This document shows, piece by piece, positions 11,610 to 64,000 of a stretch of DNA of 64,000 nt (position 1 is the stretch's first letter; the number at the start of each line of letters is the position of its first letter). The stretch spans positions 3,604,501 through 3,668,500 of the forward strand of contig NZ_JAHBRW010000001.1 in assembly GCF_018398315.1 (NCBI RefSeq), given 5' to 3'. The DNA is from Chelatococcus sp. YT9. GTDB lineage: Bacteria; Pseudomonadota; Alphaproteobacteria; Rhizobiales; Beijerinckiaceae. The position numbers were made by a program, and so were the translations under genes. The notes under the pieces were generated by a model that ran no database searches, had not been told where the DNA came from, and saw only the letters and a list, made by a program, of their open reading frames with translations.

Positions 11610-13277
11610 TCAAGCCGTCCACCGATAAAGCCATGTCTCGCCCAATGGTTTCCCTGCGCTCTCTATGACGAGACGTAATTCGGAAGCGGGGTCCCCCCCT
11701 GGGTCCAGCTCAAATGTCGCTCTCAGTGTCTTGCGCTCGGGATAAGGCCAAAGTTGGAGCTTTGATATCTTGCCGGGCGTTGCGGTCACGGTTGCCTTCG
11801 CCTCGCGCAGCAGATTGGCGTCAGAGAACGCGTCTGCGCGGAAGTCGACCGCAAAGCGCGTCACGCGTCCTGAGCCTGTCTGACCGACGCGTGTGCCGGT
11901 CACAACGGCCATCGCCGGTCTCTCGGGCGGAGACCAGCACCAATAGAGACGACATGCAAAGCTGGCTTCGCTGCCTGCTGCCAGGGGCTCTTTTGGGCGC
12001 CAATAGGCAATGATGTTATCGTTGAGCTCTGAATCGGTCGGGATTTCGATGAGCTGCACCTGTCCTGCGCCCCATTCTCCCAGGGGTTCCAGCCAAAGGC
12101 TCGGCCGGCGGTCGAAGCGCTGCCGATCGTCCTGGAACGCCCCATAGTCGCGGTCACGTTGCAACAGGCCAAAACCGACCGGGTTTGTGTCCACGAAAGC
12201 CGAGATTTCGAGATTGCTTGGATTGCTGACGGGCCGCCAGATCCATTCGCCACGCCCATTGTGGATTTGCAGGCCTTTCACCTCATAGACAGCCACGCGC
12301 ACGTCCGGCGTCGCCGCCTGATCATTCGGTCCGAAGAGGAAGGCGCCCGTCATGGCGCCGTAGCCTACATGATCAACCGCCGCACGCGGGTAGAGGCTGA
12401 CCTCGAGGTCGGTGATCGTCATCTCACCGGGCCGCAGGGTGAAGCGTGCCGTGCCGGTCAGATTCTCGGAATCGAGAAGCGCGTTGATCACCATCGCGCC
12501 GGAGCCAGCTGTCGGGCGGTCGATCCAGAAGGCCCGGAAGAACGGCACTTCCTCGCCCCTGGTATCAGCAGGCTTGAGGATCAGCGTGCGGGCGAAGACA
12601 CCGAATTCCTGGTTGCGCGCCCGCGCCCGGAAGAAAGTGGCGCCTTGGAAGATGGCCGCTTCCCAGCTACTGCCATTGCCGCCATCGGCGAGAACGCGAA
12701 AGCCCGAGAAACCGAGGTCCTGGTCCTCTGCCGGCGGCGGGACCTTCCCGAAGTCGAAGGCGTTGCGACTATAGCCGATACGCCGGATGATCCCGTCCTC
12801 GACCGCGAAGATCTGCACCCTGTTTCCATAGACGAAACCGCGATGCAGCGGCTCGACCGTGAACCCGCGCCCCTCGCGATGCCAGATCGCCGATTCGGGT
12901 TTGATGCGAATCCCAGCGTACTGGTCGAAGGGAAGCTTTGCGAAGGCGTCTGGCAGGTCGTTCGGTAGCGGCACGAACGGGCGAGTCGCAAGGAATTTCG
13001 CGACCTCCCCGATGCGCGCGGCGTCAAAGGATTTGCCGTCGCCCAGAATCTCCAGCGCGGCGTCGATCACATTTTGATTCTGCGCCTCCGCAGCGCTCGT
13101 ACCGAAAAGGCTCGCAGCCGATGCGACGGCTCCAAGACCGATCATTTCACGGCGATCGAGCACAAGGCGATCAGTGGTGTTTGGGCACGGCTTTATCTCT
13201 GACACGACGGTCCACTGTTTCTTAGAGTGAGGAAGGCGCTTGGGGGGAGCGGGACTTCCAGCCGAGGCGGCTGACAT
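11610..13277 (-). CDS. opgG: Glucan biosynthesis protein OpgG/OpgD (MdoG family), probable Tat substrate
   Basis: Periplasmic protein needed for branching/backbone completion of osmoregulated periplasmic glucans. After about 40 N-terminal residues there is a twin-arginine signal, LDRREMIGLGAVASAAS, ending in an AEA-type cleavage site. The mature part has family stretches such as FDQYAGIRIKPESAIWHREG, AYWRPKEPLAAGSEASF and DFRADAFSDANLL. At 555 residues from ATG 13277 it is full length. E. coli OpgG uses the Sec route and its paralogue OpgD the Tat route, so by signal this protein is OpgD-like, although its operon partner opgH is typical of opgG. Divergent from glmU across 145 bp. Confidence 0.9.
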   Translation of the reverse strand: MSAASAGSPAPPKRLPHSKKQWTVVSEIKPCPNTTDRLVLDRREMIGLGAVASAASLFGTSAAEAQNQNVIDAALEILGDGKSFDAARIGEVAKFLATRPFVPLPNDLPDAFAKLPFDQYAGIRIKPESAIWHREGRGFTVEPLHRGFVYGNRVQIFAVEDGIIRRIGYSRNAFDFGKVPPPAEDQDLGFSGFRVLADGGNGSSWEAAIFQGATFFRARARNQEFGVFARTLILKPADTRGEEVPFFRAFWIDRPTAGSGAMVINALLDSENLTGTARFTLRPGEMTITDLEVSLYPRAAVDHVGYGAMTGAFLFGPNDQAATPDVRVAVYEVKGLQIHNGRGEWIWRPVSNPSNLEISAFVDTNPVGFGLLQRDRDYGAFQDDRQRFDRRPSLWLEPLGEWGAGQVQLIEIPTDSELNDNIIAYWRPKEPLAAGSEASFACRLYWCWSPPERPAMAVVTGTRVGQTGSGRVTRFAVDFRADAFSDANLLREAKATVTATPGKISKLQLWPYPERKTLRATFELDPGGDPASELRLVIESAGKPLGETWLYRWTA

Positions 13278-54552: not shown

Positions 54553-56115
<1,563 letters not shown>

Positions 56116-56192
56116 TTCAGGCCCATCCAAACGCCGCCGACAACGCGCCAGAATTTCCCCTAACACTCTGATTGAAAATATTTTTTTATCCG

Positions 56193-56216
56193 CCACCTAT
56201 CGAGACCTATCGGTGG
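56193..56216. repeat. Direct ACCTATCG repeat with CCACC/GGTGG ends
   Basis: ACCTATCG occurs at 56195-56202 and 56205-56212, ten bases apart, flanked by CCACC (56193-56197) and GGTGG (56212-56216). Ten-base phasing suits a protein bound on one face of the helix. Confidence 0.5.
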
Positions 56217-56227
56217 GTAGCAATCAC

Positions 56228-56390
56228 AAGTACCGTCACGATTGACGGTGCTCGCTCATATTGATCACGGCCGTCTCAGAAAGTACCGTCGCAAGAGTTG
56301 AGGATCGTGACGGTACTTTTTTCAACGTAAGACACTGATAACAAAGTGATTTAGGCGTCACGAACCTCCCAAAACCGCATGACGGTACTT
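56228..56390. repeat. Four copies of AAGTACCGTC / GACGGTACTT in front of the integrase
   Basis: Two forward copies (56228-56237, 56281-56290) and two inverted copies (56309-56318, 56381-56390), all exact over ten bases. A fifth, degenerate site (TGACGGTGC) makes a dyad with the first. The number, two orientations and position between guaA and int suit arm-type sites bound by the integrase or by an excisionase. Confidence 0.8.
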
Positions 56391-56408
56391 TTCGGAGGCT
56401 GCGCGAAC

Positions 56409-57665
56409 ATGTTGACGGACGCTGCGCTTAAGGCGCTGAAACCAAAAGACAAAGTCTACAAGGTGTCAGACAGGGACGGCATGTATGCCCGTGTCACGCC
56501 GACAGGTCTGATCTCATTCAGCCTGGATTACCGGCTGAATGGGCGCCGCGAGACCGTCTATCTCGGCAGGTACGGACGTGACGGCATTTCGCTCGCGCGG
56601 GCTCGCGAACTCTGCCTGGACGCCAAACGCGCAGTCCGAGAGGGCCGCTCACCCGCAATTGAAAAACAGCGCGAGAAGCGCCGCCTGAAAGAGGCCAAGA
56701 GCTTCGGTCAGTTCGGCGAGAAGTGGCTGGACAAGGCTCCGATGGCGGACAGTACCAGAGCGATGCGGCGCTCGATCTTCGATCGAGAGTTGCTGCCCGT
56801 CTGGCGCAACCGGCTGCTGCACGAAATCACCCCAGATGATCTGAGAGCTCTCTGCGCCAAGATCGTCGATCGCGGTGCGCCTGCAACGGCCATCCACGTC
56901 CGCGACATCCTCAAGCAGATCTACAGTTTCGCGATCCTGCACGGCGAGAAGGTGCCCAATCCCGCCGATGAAGTCGGCCCAGCTTCGATTGCTGCATTTC
57001 GGCCCAGAGACCGTGCGCTTTCACCGACAGAGATCCGCATCATGCTGAGGCAACTGGAGCATGTCCCGACTTTGCCGACCATTCGCCTCGGCATGAAGCT
57101 CTTCCTGCTGACGATGGTTCGTAAAAGCGAGCTGCAGGACGCCGTATGGGACGAAGTGGACTTCGAGAACGCGGTTTGGAGCATTCCGAAGGAGCGGATG
57201 AAGCGCTCCAAGCCACACAATGTGTATCTTTCCCGACAGGCGCTCGACATCATGATCGCGCTCAAGACCTGTGCCGGCAATTCCCGGTATCTGCTGCCCT
57301 CGCGTTACGATGCGGATGCCCCAATGTCGCGGGCGACGTTCAACCGCATCACCTACGCGGTGGTCGATCTGGCGCAGAAGGAGGGGCTGCCGCTCGAGCC
57401 GTTTACAGTCCATGATTTGCGACGGACCGGCTCAACGCTGCTGAATGAACTCGGTTTCAACAGCGACTGGATCGAGAAATGCCTCGCCCACGAGGACGGG
57501 CGATCTTCGCGCGGCGTCTACAACAAGGCAGAGTACGAGGTTCAGCGCCGCCATATGCTCCAGGAATGGTCGGACGTCGTTGACGCATGGGTGGAAGGTC
57601 GCAAGCGGCCTGTCACCCTTCTCCCCCCGACCATGCCTATGCTTGAGCCCGACCCTGCCCTTTGA
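56409..57665 (+). CDS. int: Tyrosine integrase (DUF4102-type)
   Basis: Site-specific recombinase of the P4-like family that drives integration of the element at guaA. An N-terminal DUF4102 arm-binding domain (LTDAALKALKPKDKVYKVSDRDGMYARVTPTG) and a core-binding SAM-like domain are followed by the catalytic domain with Arg in LTMVRKSEL, HDLRRTGSTLLNEL (His-x-x-Arg), the third His in CLAHED and the Tyr in RGVYNKAEY. ATG 56409 is behind GGAGG and gives 418 residues; the earlier in-frame ATG 56379 lies in the last arm-site repeat. It starts 294 bp after guaA, in the typical orientation away from it. Its 3' end overlaps the alpA-like gene by 29 bp, tail to tail. Confidence 0.95.
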   Translation: MLTDAALKALKPKDKVYKVSDRDGMYARVTPTGLISFSLDYRLNGRRETVYLGRYGRDGISLARARELCLDAKRAVREGRSPAIEKQREKRRLKEAKSFGQFGEKWLDKAPMADSTRAMRRSIFDRELLPVWRNRLLHEITPDDLRALCAKIVDRGAPATAIHVRDILKQIYSFAILHGEKVPNPADEVGPASIAAFRPRDRALSPTEIRIMLRQLEHVPTLPTIRLGMKLFLLTMVRKSELQDAVWDEVDFENAVWSIPKERMKRSKPHNVYLSRQALDIMIALKTCAGNSRYLLPSRYDADAPMSRATFNRITYAVVDLAQKEGLPLEPFTVHDLRRTGSTLLNELGFNSDWIEKCLAHEDGRSSRGVYNKAEYEVQRRHMLQEWSDVVDAWVEGRKRPVTLLPPTMPMLEPDPAL

Positions 57666-57915
57666 CCGGCCGGAACTTCCGCTGGGCGACGTCGGGGTGT
57701 TTGGCGCGCGGGATTGGCCGCGTGCGCCGGCTTTCGAGCCACGCTTCGACCTCGGCAAGATCCCAGACGACGCATCTGGGTGAAAGGGCAAAGCGGCGAG
57801 GAAATTCTCCGCGCTGCTCCATTTCGTAAATGGTGCTGTCCGCCAGAGGAACGATTTCTCGCAGTTCATTCCTTCGGATCGAACGTTTGACGGGCCGGTC
57901 GCTAACGGATGGCAT
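57637..57915 (-). CDS. AlpA-type regulator / excisionase-like protein
   Basis: 92-residue DNA-binding protein with the AlpA family pattern: SIRRNELREIVPLADSTIYEMEQRGEFPRRF (winged helix-turn-helix) and RCVVWDLAEVEAWLESR. AlpA proteins raise integrase expression or act as excisionases in P4-like elements, which suits a place next to the integrase. ATG 57915 has AGGAG at seven bases. Divergent from the ardC-like gene. Confidence 0.85.
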   Translation of the reverse strand: MPSVSDRPVKRSIRRNELREIVPLADSTIYEMEQRGEFPRRFALSPRCVVWDLAEVEAWLESRRTRPIPRAKHPDVAQRKFRPVKGQGRAQA

Positions 57916-58124
57916 CTGCAGCTCCTGATCGTGGTGCGGTGATGCGATTGGAGCCGATATGTGCCGATAAGGGCCAGCAGAAATTGGCCGCGGCGTATGG
58001 TCGGCGACCATGGCGTGCAGATCGGACAGGCCTGATGCTGTTTGCGGCCGCTTTCTCAGGCGGGTCTTCTCCATTTAGGCCCCACCGCGGCTCCTAGAGT
58101 GAGAGTGCGGACGGGGTTTGCCGT

Positions 58125-58170
58125 GACGGGTTGAAGGTCGGGAGAGAGGCTTCCGGCGCCCGTCGCGGAG
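58125..58170 (+). promoter_or_regulatory. Hairpin leader copy A, before the ardC-like gene
   Basis: Outer stem GACGGG (58125-58130) with CCCGTC (58159-58164); inner stem from 58137 to 58157 with GTCGGGA/TTCCGGC (including G-U pairs). The Shine-Dalgarno GGAG follows at 58167-58170 and the ATG is 15 bases past the stem. It is the diverged copy of the three-copy leader. Confidence 0.7.
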
Positions 58171-58179
58171 ACAATCTCG

Positions 58180-59124
58180 ATGGCCAGACAGAACCGCGCC
58201 GCACGCGACGGCGGCGACCGCACCAATCTCTATGACGAGATCACCGCGAAAATCATCAACGAGCTGGAGCAAGGGCGCTTGCCCTGGGTCCAGCCCTGGG
58301 GCACGGCGGCGAAGGCGCCGCTCGCGATGCCGAGGAATGCCGCGACGGCCCGGCAATATTCCGGGATCAACATTCTGATCCTCTGGGGTACCGTTGTTCA
58401 ATACGGCTATCCGACCCAGCATTGGTTGACTTTCCGCCAGGCCTTGTCGCTCGGCGGCAATGTCCGGAAAGGTGAGCGCGGCACGACCGTCGTCTATGCC
58501 GACCGCTTCACGCCCGAGGATGAGAAGCGCCGCGCGCGGGAGACGGGGGAGGAAGCTGGCAGCATCCCGTTTCTCAAACGCTTCACCGTGTTCAACACGG
58601 CGCAATGCGAGGGCTTGCCTGAGGATGTTGCTATCGAGGCGCCGCCACCGCCGCCCCACATGATCGAGCCAAGGGTCGAGGCGCTGATCCGGGCGACCGG
58701 AATCGACTTTCGCATCGGTGGGAACCAGGCCTTCTATGTTCCAGCGCACGATTATGTTCAGGTGCCGCCGCCACAGGCCTATTTCGAGCCGATCGACTGG
58801 CACCGGACCGCCCTGCACGAGCTGGGGCACGCCACCGGCCATGCCTCCCGGCTTGGGCGGGATATGTCGGGCCGCTTCGGCACCAGGAAATACGCATTCG
58901 AAGAATTGGTCGCCGAAATGAACGCGGCCTTCTGCTGCGCCTCGCTCGGCGTTGTGCCGACCGTACGCCATGCCGACTACATCGGCTCCTGGCTCGAGGT
59001 GCTGCGCGAGGACAACCGCGCCATCGTCCGCGCCGCTTCCCAGGCCAGCAAGGCGGCCGATTGGCTGCTGGCGCATCTGCCCCGCGAAGATACAGCATCG
59101 ACGGATCGGAGGGCTGCGGCATGA
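58180..59124 (+). CDS. ArdC-like antirestriction protein
   Basis: Protein of the ArdC type: an N-terminal ssDNA-binding domain (LYDEITAKIINELEQGRLPWVQPWG; NAATARQYSGINILILW, of the DUF1738 family) followed by a zincin-like domain with HELGHATGH at about residues 212-220. 314 residues. ArdC-type proteins protect incoming conjugative DNA from restriction, and are standard early genes of conjugative elements. Overlaps the DUF2958 gene by four bases. Confidence 0.9.
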   Translation: MARQNRAARDGGDRTNLYDEITAKIINELEQGRLPWVQPWGTAAKAPLAMPRNAATARQYSGINILILWGTVVQYGYPTQHWLTFRQALSLGGNVRKGERGTTVVYADRFTPEDEKRRARETGEEAGSIPFLKRFTVFNTAQCEGLPEDVAIEAPPPPPHMIEPRVEALIRATGIDFRIGGNQAFYVPAHDYVQVPPPQAYFEPIDWHRTALHELGHATGHASRLGRDMSGRFGTRKYAFEELVAEMNAAFCCASLGVVPTVRHADYIGSWLEVLREDNRAIVRAASQASKAADWLLAHLPREDTASTDRRAAA

Positions 59125-59525
59125 TCCTCCTGACCAGCACCCAGCGCGAGCAGCTCCTCGCCAATGGCCGCCAGAGCGATGTCGACCCCGTCCCCGTGGT
59201 AAAATTCTTCAATCCGTTGGGTAGCGGCGTCTGGCTTGCGACCGAATTGGATAGCGACGGTGACACCCTTTTCGGCCTTGCCGATCTGGGGTTTCCAGAG
59301 CTTGGAAGCTGGAGCCTTGGCGAAATGCAGGCGATCCGCTTGCCCTTTGATATGAGGATCGAGCGCGATCTGCACTTCACCGGCGATTTCCCGATCTCGG
59401 TCTGGGCTGACATGGCGCGGCGGGCCGGTGGCATCCGCGAGGCCGAGCGCATTCTTTACTCCGGCGCCCGAGCCGCCTCCACGCCGACCCGGAAACAGAC
59501 CGATACACAGAGCCGGAAACACTGA
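59121..59525 (+). CDS. DUF2958 family protein
   Basis: 134-residue protein of unknown function. The signature pieces are LLTSTQREQLLANG, PVVKFFNPLGSGVWLATELDSDGDTLFGLADLGFPELGSWSL, and IERDLHFTGDFPISVWAD. DUF2958 proteins occur on plasmids and ICEs next to ArdC, exactly as here, with an ATGA overlap. Confidence 0.85.
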   Translation: MILLTSTQREQLLANGRQSDVDPVPVVKFFNPLGSGVWLATELDSDGDTLFGLADLGFPELGSWSLGEMQAIRLPFDMRIERDLHFTGDFPISVWADMARRAGGIREAERILYSGARAASTPTRKQTDTQSRKH

Positions 59526-59591
59526 ATCCCGCTTCTCCGGCTTTACGATTTGCGCCGCTCTCTTGAGAGGAAGAGGGCGGCGCTTTGCTTC

Positions 59592-59640
59592 GTGACGGGT
59601 TGGTGGCCGGAGAGAGAGGCTCCCGGCGCCCGTCATGGAG
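59592..59640 (+). promoter_or_regulatory. Hairpin leader copy B, before the ParB-like gene
   Basis: Same leader: outer stem GACGGG (59594-59599) / CCCGTC (59629-59634) and inner GCCGG-AG / CT-CCCGGC. Identical to copy C over 44 bases (59591-59634 against 62501-62544). The SD GGAG is at 59637-59640 and the start codon follows 14 bases past the stem. Confidence 0.75.
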
Positions 59641-59648
59641 TAAGGCAT

Positions 59649-61775
59649 ATGGCTGCTGCCGTTCAGAAGATCACCCTCGCGTCCTCGCGCGATATCCCGT
59701 TCAACAAGCTGGCGCTGAGCCAGGCCAATGTCCGGCGCGTCAAAGCCGGCATCTCGGTCGAGGAACTGGCCGAATCCATCGCCCGCCGCGGCCTGATCCA
59801 GTCCCTGCATGTGCGGCCAGTCCTCGACCCTGAGGGCAAGGAAACCGGCATGTTCGAGGTGCCCGCAGGCGGTCGCCGCTATCGGGCCCTTGAATTGCTG
59901 GTCAAGCAGAAGCGTCTCGCAAAAACTGCACCGGTACCATGCGTCATATCCGAGGCCGATGCCGACATCCTGATCGACGAAGTCTCGCTCGCGGAAAATA
60001 TCGAGCGCGCGCCGCTTCATCCGCTCGATCAGTTTCGGGCCTTCCAGGCGCTGCGCAACAAGGCGATGAGCGAGGAAGCCATCGCAGCCGCCTTCTTTGT
60101 CGACCCGAAGGTCGTCAAGCAGCGCCTGCGTCTTGCTGCGGTCTCGCCCGTGCTTCTCGACGTTTACGCCGAAGACGGCATGACGCTCGAACAGCTCATG
60201 GCCTTCACCGTGTCGGAAGACCATGCCCGGCAGGAACAGGTCTGGGATGCGATCAAGGATTCCTGGCAGAAAGAGCCGCACTATATCCGCCGTCTCCTGA
60301 CTGAAACCGCAGTGCGCGCCTCTGACAGGCGAGCGCTTTTTGTCGGTATCGAGGCCTATGAAGCCGCCGGCGGCTATGTGCTGCGCGATCTCTTTCAGCG
60401 CGACGACGGCGGCTGGCTTCAGGATCCGGAGCTGCTCGATCGCCTAGCAGGCGAAAAGCTGAAAGCCGAAGCCGAGTCCATTGCGGCCGAAGGCTGGCAG
60501 TGGGTCGAGGTAGCGGTGACCTTTCCCTATGGCCACGACCACGGCCTGCGGGAACTCGAGGGCTCGGTCGCCGATCTGACCGACGATGAGCGCGCCACCC
60601 GCGAATCCCTGCGCGAGGAATATGACCGGCTCGAAGCCGAATATGCCGAGGCCGACGAGCTGCCCGATGAGGTCGATCAGCGGCTTGGTGAGATTGAGCA
60701 GGCGTTGGAAGAATTCGAGCGCAGGCCGATGATCTATGATCCCGAACAGGTTGCGCGGGCGGGCGTCTTCGTCAGCATCGATGGGAACGGCAAGCTGCGG
60801 GCCGAACGGGGTTATGTTCGGCCCGAGGATGAAGCGGCGATTGATGGCGAAGATCCCGATGGCTCCTCCGGCCCGGCCACAGAGGGCGCAGTAGCTGGTG
60901 TGTCGCATGCGGTTGTCCAAGTCGGTGGCGGCAGCGAATCTCCGGAGGACGACGATGAGGCCGAGATTGTGCGGCCGCTGCCGGACCGGTTGATCAGCGA
61001 GCTGACCGCGCATCGCACGCTCGCGCTGCGCGATGCTGTTGCGATGAATCCCCATATTGCGATGACCGCGCTGCTGCATCGGCTGGTGATGGACACCTTC
61101 CTGCCGCAGCCCGCCAGGGGATGCCTCGAGGCCCATGTCCGCCAGGTTCACTTGCCGGCACAGGCTGAGGATTTGCGCGACAGCGTCTCGGCGCGGTCTG
61201 TTACCGAACGGCACGAACGCTGGGGCGATCACATCCCGGCTGACGATGAGGCGCTCTGGAACTGGCTGATCGATCTCGATGAGGAGTCCCGCATGGAGCT
61301 TCTCGCCCATTGCGTCAGCTTTGGCATCAACGCCCTTTACGAAAAGCCCAATCCCTATAGCGGCACGGGCGTCAGCCAACACGGGCTGGAGGTGCGTCTC
61401 TCCCAGGCGAACCGTCTGGTGTGCGCTACCGGTCTCGACATGGTGGTGGCGGGCTGGAAGCCGACCGTCAGCAACTATCTCGGCCGTGTGACCAAGCCGC
61501 GCATCCTCGAGGCGGTTCGCGAAGGTGCAGGCGAACGGGCATCGGAGCTGATCGGGCATCTCAAGAAGGGCGACATGGCCAAGGAAGCCGAGCGCCTGCT
61601 CGCCGATACCGGCTGGCTGCCCGAGCCGCTGCGCACGATCGATCCTGCTGCGGAGCCTGACGCTTCGGCGGAAGGCGATGTCGATGTGGACCTTCCTGAA
61701 TTCCTCGCAGGCGACGCCGAGAATGACATTGTCGACGAAGAGGATGAGGCGCAGCAGGTGATCGCCGCGGAATGA
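59649..61775 (+). CDS. Large ParB/RepB/Spo0J-family protein
   Basis: 708-residue protein with an N-terminal ParB domain (about residues 20-220: NVRRVKAGISVEELAESIARRGLIQSLHVRP, PAGGRRYRALELL with the CTP/DNA-binding GGRRYRA-type motif, SLAENIERAPLHPLDQFRAF, a helix-turn-helix in AIAAAFFVDPKVVKQRL). A long acidic, Asp/Glu-rich mid region and a C-terminal region without recognised domains follow. ParB proteins of this size are typical of alphaproteobacterial ICEs and plasmids. The partner ParA is not seen. Ends before the terminator at 61784. Confidence 0.92.
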   Translation: MAAAVQKITLASSRDIPFNKLALSQANVRRVKAGISVEELAESIARRGLIQSLHVRPVLDPEGKETGMFEVPAGGRRYRALELLVKQKRLAKTAPVPCVISEADADILIDEVSLAENIERAPLHPLDQFRAFQALRNKAMSEEAIAAAFFVDPKVVKQRLRLAAVSPVLLDVYAEDGMTLEQLMAFTVSEDHARQEQVWDAIKDSWQKEPHYIRRLLTETAVRASDRRALFVGIEAYEAAGGYVLRDLFQRDDGGWLQDPELLDRLAGEKLKAEAESIAAEGWQWVEVAVTFPYGHDHGLRELEGSVADLTDDERATRESLREEYDRLEAEYAEADELPDEVDQRLGEIEQALEEFERRPMIYDPEQVARAGVFVSIDGNGKLRAERGYVRPEDEAAIDGEDPDGSSGPATEGAVAGVSHAVVQVGGGSESPEDDDEAEIVRPLPDRLISELTAHRTLALRDAVAMNPHIAMTALLHRLVMDTFLPQPARGCLEAHVRQVHLPAQAEDLRDSVSARSVTERHERWGDHIPADDEALWNWLIDLDEESRMELLAHCVSFGINALYEKPNPYSGTGVSQHGLEVRLSQANRLVCATGLDMVVAGWKPTVSNYLGRVTKPRILEAVREGAGERASELIGHLKKGDMAKEAERLLADTGWLPEPLRTIDPAAEPDASAEGDVDVDLPEFLAGDAENDIVDEEDEAQQVIAAE

Positions 61776-62199
61776 TCGTCACGCGGGGCGGCTCCGGCTG
61801 CCCCGTCTCTTCCTGACGCAATCGGGATGGAGCAAGCCGCGCCAGGGTCGCCCCAGGATCAATCCCCGTCATGGCTGGCGCAATGGGTGCCGTCCCCGGG
61901 GCTGAAGGATCATCGCTTATTGCCCGCGTGGTAACCAGGCTGGCGCGGCGAACCGATCCGCAACGGATATGCGGATTCCTGTCAGAGGCAGAACACCCCC
62001 CCCGCTTCCATTCGCAAACCTTGGTCTGAGCCGTCGTCTTTGCATTCAACCCGCAAGGGGTCGGCTTGACGCTTTGCGTGCCGCCCTCGCGGATCCGGAC
62101 AAGCCGAACGCGCGAGGGTGATTGCAGATCCGGTCAGACACTTCGGGTGCCTGTCGCGCGGGGGATGGTCCCCCGCCTCCAAAACAGGAGCCGGAACCC
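61776..62199. other. Intergenic region after parB
   Basis: About 420 bases. Contains the terminator at 61784-61814, then a long GC-rich stretch without convincing frames (the frames on both strands are short or overlap parB). A hairpin GCGGGG/CCCCGC at 62159-62176 lies just before the small gene at 62200. Confidence 0.4.
61784..61814 (+). terminator. Terminator of parB
   Basis: Nine-pair stem CGGGGCGGC / GCTGCCCCG (one G-U) with loop TCCG, followed by TCTCTTCCT. It starts 9 bp past the parB stop. Confidence 0.6.
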
Positions 62200-62364
62200 A
62201 TGTCCTATGCAGATGCCACCGCCTTTGCCGCCAGCCTCGCCACCACGCTGATGACTGTGATCGTCGTGTTCCAGGCCGGGGACGGCACCCATGGCGCCAT
62301 GCCCGCCAATGAGTTCGATGGCGACGAAGAGATGGTGAAACTCGAACTTGATCCGTGGATCTGA
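62200..62364 (+). CDS. Small element protein of unknown function
   Basis: 54-residue protein, MSYADATAFAASLATTLMTVIVVFQ followed by an acidic tail (MPANEFDGDEEMVKLELDPWI). The AGGAG site at 62186-62190 supports the ATG at 62200. From memory, near-identical small proteins recur in alphaproteobacterial ICEs beside ArdC/ParB genes. A hydrophobic stretch in the middle may be membrane-associated. Function unknown. Confidence 0.7.
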   Translation: MSYADATAFAASLATTLMTVIVVFQAGDGTHGAMPANEFDGDEEMVKLELDPWI

Positions 62365-62501
62365 GGCACGAGAAGAGCCTCATCCCGATGGCCCGGCGCG
62401 CAGGCAACGCAGCCGAGCCATCGCTTTGCGGATAATCTCTCACTGCCGGCGGTAGCGGCCATACCGCGATACGAAAGAGTTAGAGTGCGGGCCGGTTGGC
62501 C

Positions 62502-62550
62502 GTGACGGGTTGGTGGCCGGAGAGAGAGGCTCCCGGCGCCCGTCGCGGAG
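62502..62550 (+). promoter_or_regulatory. Hairpin leader copy C, before the gene at 62559
   Basis: Outer stem GACGGG (62504-62509) / CCCGTC (62539-62544), inner stem as in copy B. The run is identical to copy B over 44 bases. Like copy A, it is preceded by an AGAGTGCGG sequence (62483-62491). SD GGAG at 62547-62550, start 14 bases past the stem. Confidence 0.75.
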
Positions 62551-62558
62551 TAGTTCCC

Positions 62559-63107
62559 ATGTCCCTCCACCGCTCATCCGGCTTCCGCCCGATCGGCGAA
62601 ATCCTCGCCCGGCAGGTGCTGCCCGGGCTGCGTAGCGCCCTTCGGTATCCGCTACGGGTTTCCTGCCTCGGCACTGTCAGTTTCGTCGACGATCACGATA
62701 CCAGCCAATTCGACCGGACTATCGTTCTCGGTGAATGTACCACTCCCGAAGACGCCATGACGATCGCGGCACAGCGCGTTTCGCGTGACGATATTCGCGT
62801 TGGAGAGGACGACACGCTGCGCTTTGAGGCGCGCATTGCCGCAATTCATGACTCGACCTACGGTCTGGTCCTCGCCGGAGAAATCCGGGCTCGGGCCATT
62901 GTCTGGCAGCAGCCTGTCATCTCTGACGCGCAAGCCCGCCGTATCGTGAGCGAGGCAAGCCGGTTGCGCGGCAGCGCCTCGGCGGCTTGCGATGCCCGGT
63001 CGGCGCGGAACCTGCGCTACCGCGCCAGTCTGCTCGAAACACGCCTGGTCGATCGCGGCTGGCGGGAGACCGCTGCGGAACTGCTTAGCCTGCCCCGCGC
63101 CGCCTGA
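62559..63107 (+). CDS. Element protein of unknown function
   Basis: 182-residue protein, no recognised domain. It opens MSLHRSSGFRPIGEILARQVLPGL and contains TIVLGECTTPEDAMTIAAQ, then an Arg-rich C-terminal part (VSEASRLRGSASAACDARSARNLRYRASLLETRL). Soluble by composition. Placed in the island third block with hairpin leader C, followed after 64 bp by the next gene. Real because of the SD, leader and codon use like its neighbours. Confidence 0.65.
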   Translation: MSLHRSSGFRPIGEILARQVLPGLRSALRYPLRVSCLGTVSFVDDHDTSQFDRTIVLGECTTPEDAMTIAAQRVSRDDIRVGEDDTLRFEARIAAIHDSTYGLVLAGEIRARAIVWQQPVISDAQARRIVSEASRLRGSASAACDARSARNLRYRASLLETRLVDRGWRETAAELLSLPRAA

Positions 63108-63171
63108 TTTTCACCTCTTCCACGCAATCGGCCTGGTCCTGCGCCAGGCCTCCTCATGTCCGGAGGCCGTC

Positions 63172-63588
63172 ATGGCTGACTATTACACCCATTTTTCCTG
63201 CCTGCTCGATGTAGGCACCCCTGAGAACGCTGTCCGTGCGCTCGAACTCTATAATGCGCTGGCGGACGAAAATGCAGCCGAAGATCCCTCATCGGATGGC
63301 TTCCTGCTGTCGATCCAGCCCGAACATGGCGGTACGCAGCTCTGGATACGCGACGATCCCACCGGCGATCCCGAGCACGTTATCCAATTCGTCAGGCGCT
63401 GCGCCGCCGTGTTCGAGCTCAAGGGCCGGTGGGGCTTCCAATATGCCAACACCTGCTCGAAGCCGCGCCTCGATGGCTTCGGCGGTGGCGCACACGTACT
63501 CGATCTTTCGACCGGCGAGACAGTGGATTGGATCTATACCGACGGCTGGCTCTCGACCGTGCTGGAGGGAGGCGATCCCCATGCCTGA
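63172..63588 (+). CDS. Element protein of unknown function
   Basis: 138-residue soluble protein, MADYYTHFSCLLDVGTPENAVRALELY at the start, and QPEHGGTQLWIRDDPTGDPEHVIQFVRRCAAVFELKGRWGFQYANTCSKPR in the middle in pieces typical of element proteins I recall, but no named family. A GGAGG site precedes ATG 63172, itself preceded by a hairpin GGCCTGG/CCAGGCC (63130-63150). It overlaps the next gene by eight bases. Confidence 0.65.
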   Translation: MADYYTHFSCLLDVGTPENAVRALELYNALADENAAEDPSSDGFLLSIQPEHGGTQLWIRDDPTGDPEHVIQFVRRCAAVFELKGRWGFQYANTCSKPRLDGFGGGAHVLDLSTGETVDWIYTDGWLSTVLEGGDPHA

Positions 63589-64000
63589 AATCATCGAAAC
63601 CACAGTCTATCGCCTCGACGAACTTTCCGAAACGGCGAAGGACAAGGCCCGCGCCTGGTATCGTGAAGGCGGCTTCGACTACGATTGGTACGACGCCGTT
63701 TATGAGGATTTCCAGCGCATCGCCGAGATCCTCGGCATCCGCCTCAAGACCCGAACCGCTCGCCTGATGGGCGGCGGATCGCGGCAGGAACCCTGCATCT
63801 GGTTCCGGGGCTTCTGGTCGCAAGGTGACGGCGCGTGCTGGGAGGGGTTCTACTCCTACTGCAGGAACGCCTCTGCCGCGATCCGGGCTTACGCGCCGCA
63901 GGACGAGATGCTGCATGGCATCGCAGATGCGCTTCAGGATGCCCAGCGGCGCAACTTTTATCAGCTTCGCGCTGACGTCGGTCATCGCGGCCATTACTAC
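63581..64000 (+). CDS. Element protein, often annotated antitoxin-like (partial)
   Basis: At least 140 residues, cut by the right edge. It starts MPEIIETTVYRLDELSETAKDKARAWYREGGFDYDWYDAVYEDFQRI and continues with ARLMGGGSRQEPCIWFRGFWSQGDGACWEGFYSYC. Similar proteins in ICEs are sometimes labelled antitoxin of a stability system, but that label is not supported by any partner here. Overlaps the previous gene by eight bases and shares its transcript. Confidence 0.6.
   Translation, partial: MPEIIETTVYRLDELSETAKDKARAWYREGGFDYDWYDAVYEDFQRIAEILGIRLKTRTARLMGGGSRQEPCIWFRGFWSQGDGACWEGFYSYCRNASAAIRAYAPQDEMLHGIADALQDAQRRNFYQLRADVGHRGHYY

Follow-up and report, generated by a model that had tools for sequence, protein, structure and literature searches.

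A recurrent hairpin leader, predicted to mask the Shine–Dalgarno sequence, before ardC, parB and associated genes of alphaproteobacterial elements

Why should three genes of one genomic island begin with the same hairpin? The question is raised by a stretch of 64,000 nucleotides (nt) from Chelatococcus sp. YT9 (contig NZ_JAHBRW010000001.1, positions 3,604,501 to 3,668,500 of the forward strand), here called the window and numbered from its first letter, in which a hairpin stands before ardC, before a parB-like gene and before the gene of a protein of 182 amino acids (aa) that we call protein X. On comparing the sequences of its many relatives we consider it probable that the hairpin belongs to a family of cis-acting mRNA leaders controlling translation initiation of establishment-type genes.

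The three hairpins lie on the forward strand, at 58121–58169 before ardC (copy A), 59590–59639 before parB (copy B) and 62500–62549 before the gene of protein X (copy C). The original prediction had reported three copies with an outer stem GACGGG/CCCGTC, and all are present: GACGGG starts at 58125, 59594 and 62504 and CCCGTC ends at 58164, 59634 and 62544 in A, B and C, respectively. B and C are, as had been noted, identical over 44 bases (59591–59634 and 62501–62544), and copy A, changed in both arms, does still pair, C–G having become U–G and G–C having become G–U. The start codons at 58180, 59649 and 62559 had been correctly placed 15, 14 and 14 bases past CCCGTC. The Shine–Dalgarno (SD) sequence, which had been put after the stem, has to be moved: the outer stem is longer than was stated, CCGUGACGGG being paired with CCCGUCGCGG, and it ends with the GG of the SD sequence GGAG (58167–58170, 59637–59640 and 62547–62550), so that this GG is itself paired rather than lying 3' of the stem. 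The whole leader, ~84 nt long in the window, consists of the motif AGAGNNAGAG, a spacer, a bulged hairpin of 18–19 base pairs (bp) with an AGAGG-type loop, the SD and the AUG. The motif takes the form AGAGTGAGAG at 58096–58105 upstream of hairpin A, AGAGGAAGAG at 59566–59575 in copy B, where it falls inside an accessory stem (59552–59583), and AGAGTTAGAG at 62476–62485 upstream of hairpin C, each on the forward strand.

With up to three mismatches allowed, the core pattern occurs three times in the window against 0.01 expected. The covariance model R1, which describes the hairpin alone and was built from 15 seeds found by similarity to the window, without AGAGNNAGAG or the start codon, scores A, B and C at 75.6, 69.5 and 74 bits, and the model R2 at 76, 69.4 and 72.8 bits. 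Searching the organism's own genome with R1 returned exactly three copies; a pattern search of it recovered B and C alone, the pattern length being wrong for A. Folding energies of 66-nt pieces of A, B and C gave z-scores of −2.7, −3.2 and −3.6, and longer pieces (75, 70 and 75 nt) gave −3.6, −6.1 and −1.9; the weakest value is that of the 75-nt piece of copy C, which does not stand out. For copy B an extended stem is predicted, in which the whole SD is paired (59580–59649, −45.4 kcal/mol, z = −6.1).

The link to gene starts is tight. When R1 was run over 154 sources (34, 60 and 60), 257 matches were obtained, or 236 distinct copies once those with the same hairpin and flanks had been merged, some of the fetched loci overlapping. 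An ATG opening an open reading frame (ORF) of at least 50 aa lies 8–10 nt past the last model base in 214 of the 236, compared with 7.8% of 1180 random positions in the same loci that have the ATG of such an ORF 5–16 nt on. The remaining 22 comprise 10 copies lacking such an ORF, 6 with too little DNA and 6 at other distances; on inspection by eye, nine of the 10 ORF-less copies have an ATG at 8–10 nt and one has ACG. Clustering of the downstream proteins gave ParB (75), ArdC (72), X (48) and DUF932-like (19) groups, with six others in five small groups that include one AlpA-like and one Toprim protein. The label DUF932 is a weak one, as the two members tested match the Pfam family below its cut-off; such genes carry the name DUF932 in two plasmid records. 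A coding reading of the leader is unsupported, 160 of 214 copies having in-frame stops. The predicted association with gene starts therefore stands for the ardC, parB and 62559 families; it does not extend to the DUF2958 gene (59121–59525, forward strand, Pfam), which lies directly behind ardC and lacks a separate copy in the window.

The hairpin accompanies close relatives of these genes and not distant ones. Among the 385 genomes of the window's class, the hairpin lies upstream of all 11 inspected ArdC homologues whose N-terminus is covered and whose identity is at least 70%, and, by coordinates, of a 91-aa ArdC fragment; at 64% identity or less it was found in none of the 17 inspected. For ParB homologues at 50% identity or above, again with the N-terminus covered, the figure is 26 of 26 (24 from R1 coordinates, two from inspection and R2), and below 50% it is 1 of 14 by R1 coordinates, the upstream DNA having been inspected for 2 of the 13 negatives. 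For each gene, then, the leader keeps to a single clade. Copies that precede different genes resemble one another hardly more within an element (similarity 0.80) than between elements (0.79), and those before the same gene in different elements reach 0.83. In all 81 sources with two or more copies, every copy is on one strand. A mobile DNA repeat, of the repetitive extragenic palindrome or miniature inverted-repeat kind, which the original prediction had named as an outcome that would undo it if the copies lay away from gene starts, is rejected: the copies sit at gene starts, keep to one clade per gene and show no greater likeness within an element to speak of. In three loci of more distant relatives (L239 and L240, with ParB homologues of 47% and 44% identity, and L210, with an ArdC homologue of 43%) we observed an unrelated, near-perfect palindromic hairpin of the GGTTGCAGCGC..GCGCTGCAACC type just before the SD of parB or ardC; in these other element lineages it may represent another family of leaders or else an operator.

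How widely is the leader spread? R1 matches 26 of the 385 genomes of the class, which to judge from the named relatives is Alphaproteobacteria, and in a sample of the phylum 32 of 398 genomes, all 32 in the window's class, the listing of that sample leaving unstated what share of the 398 lies outside the class. Searches of more than 40 genomes used stricter filters and missed two true copies, and the scan of genome contigs yielded at least 120 stretches, 80 of them listed by name. In plasmid records, blastn matched copy C at 196 places (132 records) and copy A at 298 (226 records); the organisms among the matches listed (40 rows for copy C, 60 for copy A) are, we take it, alphaproteobacteria. 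Among 50,697 phage records none matches copy C. The leader does occur on some IMG/VR contigs (loci L173, L176, L182 and L185), standing before parB, ardC or DUF932-like genes in five cases out of seven, and these contigs are probably conjugative elements classed as viral. The claim that the element is unexplained by any annotated feature holds as far as Rfam 15 goes: window positions 56000–64000 gave no family match at E ≤ 1, with one sub-threshold hit elsewhere, and seven loci with other copies gave two sub-threshold hits at E ≤ 0.5, neither on a hairpin. Among the papers listed by searches of open-access literature, none describes the leader in its title or in the opening of its abstract, subscription papers and preprints being outside the scope of that search.

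Does the stem act as RNA? When the 15 seeds are aligned with MAFFT, 93.6% of cells are paired, a value reached by 3 of 500 shuffles. Alignment A4, of 106 copies aligned to R1, has 98.6% of cells paired, with nine pairs and 53 cells changed on both sides, and none of 500 shuffles attains this; slid versions of A4 pair in 31–44% of cells. A4 was fitted to R1, and kinship alone can let sequences beat shuffles without structure. The same helix was found by RNAalifold from structure-free alignments, with near-duplicates dropped, of 54 ParB, 45 ArdC, 18 X and 12 DUF932-like leaders taken separately. The stem covaries across homologues, then, as a check proposed with the original prediction required. 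In two diverged ParB leaders, both missed by the R1 genome search, a rewritten stem GACGAGCC/GGCTCGTC replaces GACGGG/CCCGTC and the hairpin is kept. The GG of GGAG forms stem pairs 1 and 2, which are paired in 175 and 169, respectively, of the 178 distinct hairpins that have both letters. The terminal loop in the predicted folds is AGAGG in 185 of 236 copies and AGUGG in 11. Stem cells in 183 distinct hairpins comprise 2708 Watson–Crick, 610 G–T, 25 A–C and 56 other combinations, and the excess of G–T over A–C indicates that the folded strand is that of the mRNA.

This last asymmetry bears on the idea that the element works at the DNA level, as an operator or promoter for an element-encoded regulator with the dyad symmetry forming part of its binding site. 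Rigid spacing, a strongly conserved stem sequence and a hexamer step in the AGAG motif that resembles a direct-repeat site would all suit such a site. An RNA-like bias towards G–T is not what it would lead one to expect, nor is a position fixed relative to the start codon; furthermore, no sigma-70-like site was found in 57900–63200, in a search that did not cover other promoter types, and conservation stops at the AGAG motif, every column upstream of it carrying ≤0.55 bits in 50 non-redundant copies. We regard a DNA-level element as improbable.

The motif AGAGNNAGAG itself was missed in the original prediction. It lies 12–17 nt before the hairpin in all 125 copies that were not chosen by it (102 exact, 23 with one mismatch), namely 52 of 52 copies of the BLAST and model sets and 73 of 73 other copies in pattern loci, as against 39 of 4720 random positions; the other 110 of the 235 tallied copies had been found through the AGAG pattern and are excluded from this statement. 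In a subset of leaders a second structured block of ~75 nt, GGGGGAAAGCCTTCCCCC followed by a variable hairpin and CCCCTTCTGCGGGGAGACCCCGCAACGCCCC, was seen directly upstream of AGAGNNAGAG: in 40 of 71 ArdC and 12 of 19 DUF932-like leaders, and in none of 73 ParB and 45 X leaders. It is located, for example, at 11951–11976 of locus L005 and the ~50 bases before, and likewise in loci L015, L021, L049 and others, and the 3' part of the block is found a single time in each of 54 loci. Near the ardC of the window there is no match to the GGGGAAAGCCTTCCCC part. The block could be an operator or promoter of the gene array.

Leaders that sequester the SD, such as RNA thermometers and ribosomal-protein leaders, hold it bound in a stem, and the protein TRAP binds GAG triplets. 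The present leader shares with these an SD inside a conserved stem, kept by compensatory change, as well as repeated GAG triplets; it differs in having no known ligand, protein or temperature response and no Rfam family match. By its mode of working we offer it as a new family of SD-masking leaders. Over 201 leaders (23 copies were dropped for lacking flank or for an odd start distance) the predicted mean pairing of the SD is 0.92 for ParB, 0.90 for DUF932-like, 0.83 for ArdC and 0.55 for X. An extra helix, joining the spacer downstream of AGAG to bases before the AUG, is stronger than in partner-swapped sets for ArdC (z = −3.3), X (z = −3.3) and DUF932-like leaders (z = −2.5).

It is from the pairing of the SD that we infer regulation. 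A folded leader would keep the 30S subunit off the SD, and ArdC, ParB, X and the DUF932-like protein would then be translated little, or under control. A reader of the AGAG motifs, of which there are three, two upstream and one in the loop, might open or stabilise the hairpin; an RNA-binding protein or a CUCU-containing small RNA would be candidates. The hairpin-bearing genes could thereby be set together, their products perhaps being made upon entry of the element into a new cell or at the onset of transfer. The fuller version of this scheme, an element-wide RNA regulon in which the AGAG-triplet reader opens the SD hairpins and so turns on establishment genes at translation upon DNA entry, is put forward tentatively and we would not bet on it; if true, it would be a third route of zygotic induction, beside single-stranded promoters and escape from a repressor.

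Several observations weigh against translational control. No partner molecule was found. The pairing of the SD is a prediction, and the AG part of GGAG pairs little in X leaders (0.13). The extra helix is unsupported in ParB (z = −0.3), and kinship inflates all of these z values. Hardly any sequence change is seen in the outer stem, and a site bound by a protein would account for this no less than a switch. That no trans factor was found also fits a constitutive leader, in which hairpin and AGAG tract would stabilise the mRNA or act as a ribosome standby site, holding expression at a fixed level, high or low, with no switching; the fixed geometry of AGAG, hairpin and SD fits a ribosome footprint. 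A plain stability element has little need, however, of a near-invariant loop and outer stem, or of keeping to one small gene set over many hosts, and we judge such a leader unlikely, albeit less so than a DNA-level site.

The original prediction had allowed for co-regulation of either translation or attenuation. That an RNA leader stands before ardC, parB and the 62559 gene is supported; of the two modes translation is favoured because no U-tract follows the hairpin. An intrinsic terminator or attenuator is rejected, GGAG and the start codon following instead, and the conserved hairpin is not among the terminator-like sites of the region. More broadly, the hairpin might define mRNA ends between genes through a polymerase pause, a Rho-dependent stop or an RNase cut, and there is a precedent in EGeRS1-B of the Bacillus plasmid pLS20, which blocks read-through from an upstream promoter (PMC8708921). 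The parB leader of the window offers a candidate in its accessory stem at 59552–59583, a 13-bp stem directly before hairpin B with a terminator-like T-rich tail and the first AGAG in its loop. Terminator-like sites are not in excess in the region (4 against 3.2 in shuffles), though, and this stem is missing from the ParB consensus fold; a similar stem of other sequence seems to be present in some ParB leaders elsewhere. Attenuation or processing therefore strikes us as a poor prospect beside translational control.

Where the genes lie is relevant to what they might be for. In the window the hairpin array sits behind an integrase, and farther along the same genome, all on the forward strand, are genes for a strawberry-notch helicase, a RepA-type replication initiator, a DUF3363 relaxase, TraG and Trb proteins, some unnamed frames there lying on the opposite strand. 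On three annotated plasmids the replication genes and the relaxase enclose the hairpin genes, which are oriented towards the relaxase. By analogy this is where leading-region or establishment genes lie elsewhere, and the order and direction of the genes suggest an establishment role. The ArdC of R388 is required on the recipient side when the transfer is from E. coli to P. putida (PMC7213743).

Such genes are preceded by repeated sequences in other systems too. Frpo/ssi single-stranded promoters of F and ColIb-P9 are hairpin-forming sequences repeated before leading-region anti-defence genes (PMC11541004). This likeness, together with the gene type and the orientation towards the relaxase in the three plasmids, raises the possibility of a single-stranded-DNA promoter active on the entering transferred strand (T-strand). 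The stem described here is short, rich in G+C and free of −35 and −10 hexamers (TTGACA or TATAAT), and it abuts the start codon; the wobble-tolerant strand is the mRNA strand, and under the inferred direction of transfer the T-strand would be the other one. With no sigma-70-like site in the region either, membership of the Frpo/ssi class is rejected and we hold a promoter of this kind to be very improbable.

EGeRS1 of pLS20 has a similar layout: related sequences stand before several establishment genes including an ardC, are predicted to fold and have a conserved region ending at ribosome-binding sites, with no constitutive promoter in the copy tested (PMC8708921). Our leader likewise precedes several genes including ardC, with an establishment role that is here suggested rather than known. 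Compared by description, EGeRS1 is a ~325-nt conserved four-branched region of a Bacillus plasmid, whereas the present leader, from alphaproteobacteria, has a single short hairpin and AGAGNNAGAG. Membership is rejected on size and form, conservation ending at AGAG in the pooled set and the ~75-nt block being confined to a subset. The ArdK regulon of R388 brings ardC, ssb and other maintenance genes together, and ardC and ssb transcripts rise after conjugation (PMC3937220). It resembles our case as one regulon including ardC and differs in that a repressor acts at promoters in R388, as opposed to an element in the mRNA leader. The accounts consulted of anti-restriction and establishment gene expression after entry concern E. 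coli plasmids (single-stranded promoters, repressor escape) and Bacillus (EGeRS), and none is alphaproteobacterial. One small RNA here marks a set of such putative establishment genes in alphaproteobacterial elements; its presence points to genes such as that of protein X as members of the set, and AGAG would provide a handle for finding the partner.

The genes of the array are all on the forward strand. The ardC product (58180–59124) has ArdcN and MPTase-PolyVal domains and the parB-like gene (59649–61775) encodes a 708-aa protein with ParB_N, both by Pfam. Protein X (62559–63107) has no Pfam or NCBIfam match. Its distant relatives on three named plasmids are annotated as DNA repair protein RadC, a name not borne out by a Pfam search with one of them, which gave no match; an AlphaFold2 model of X (predicted local distance difference test score, pLDDT, 82) has no convincing match in the PDB. 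The array is adjoined by a GMP synthase gene (54553–56115), and the border of the island at 54553–58074 comprises this gene, a tyrosine integrase and an AlpA-like regulator; in locus L019 an AlpA-like gene has a leader copy of its own. Between parB and the gene of protein X, a 54-aa protein without a family match is encoded at 62200–62364; in plasmids of three other species the equivalent location encodes a hypothetical protein, likewise of 54 aa, a correspondence by position and length. A 24-nt inverted repeat (61876–61899 and 62276–62299) extends into the gene of this protein.

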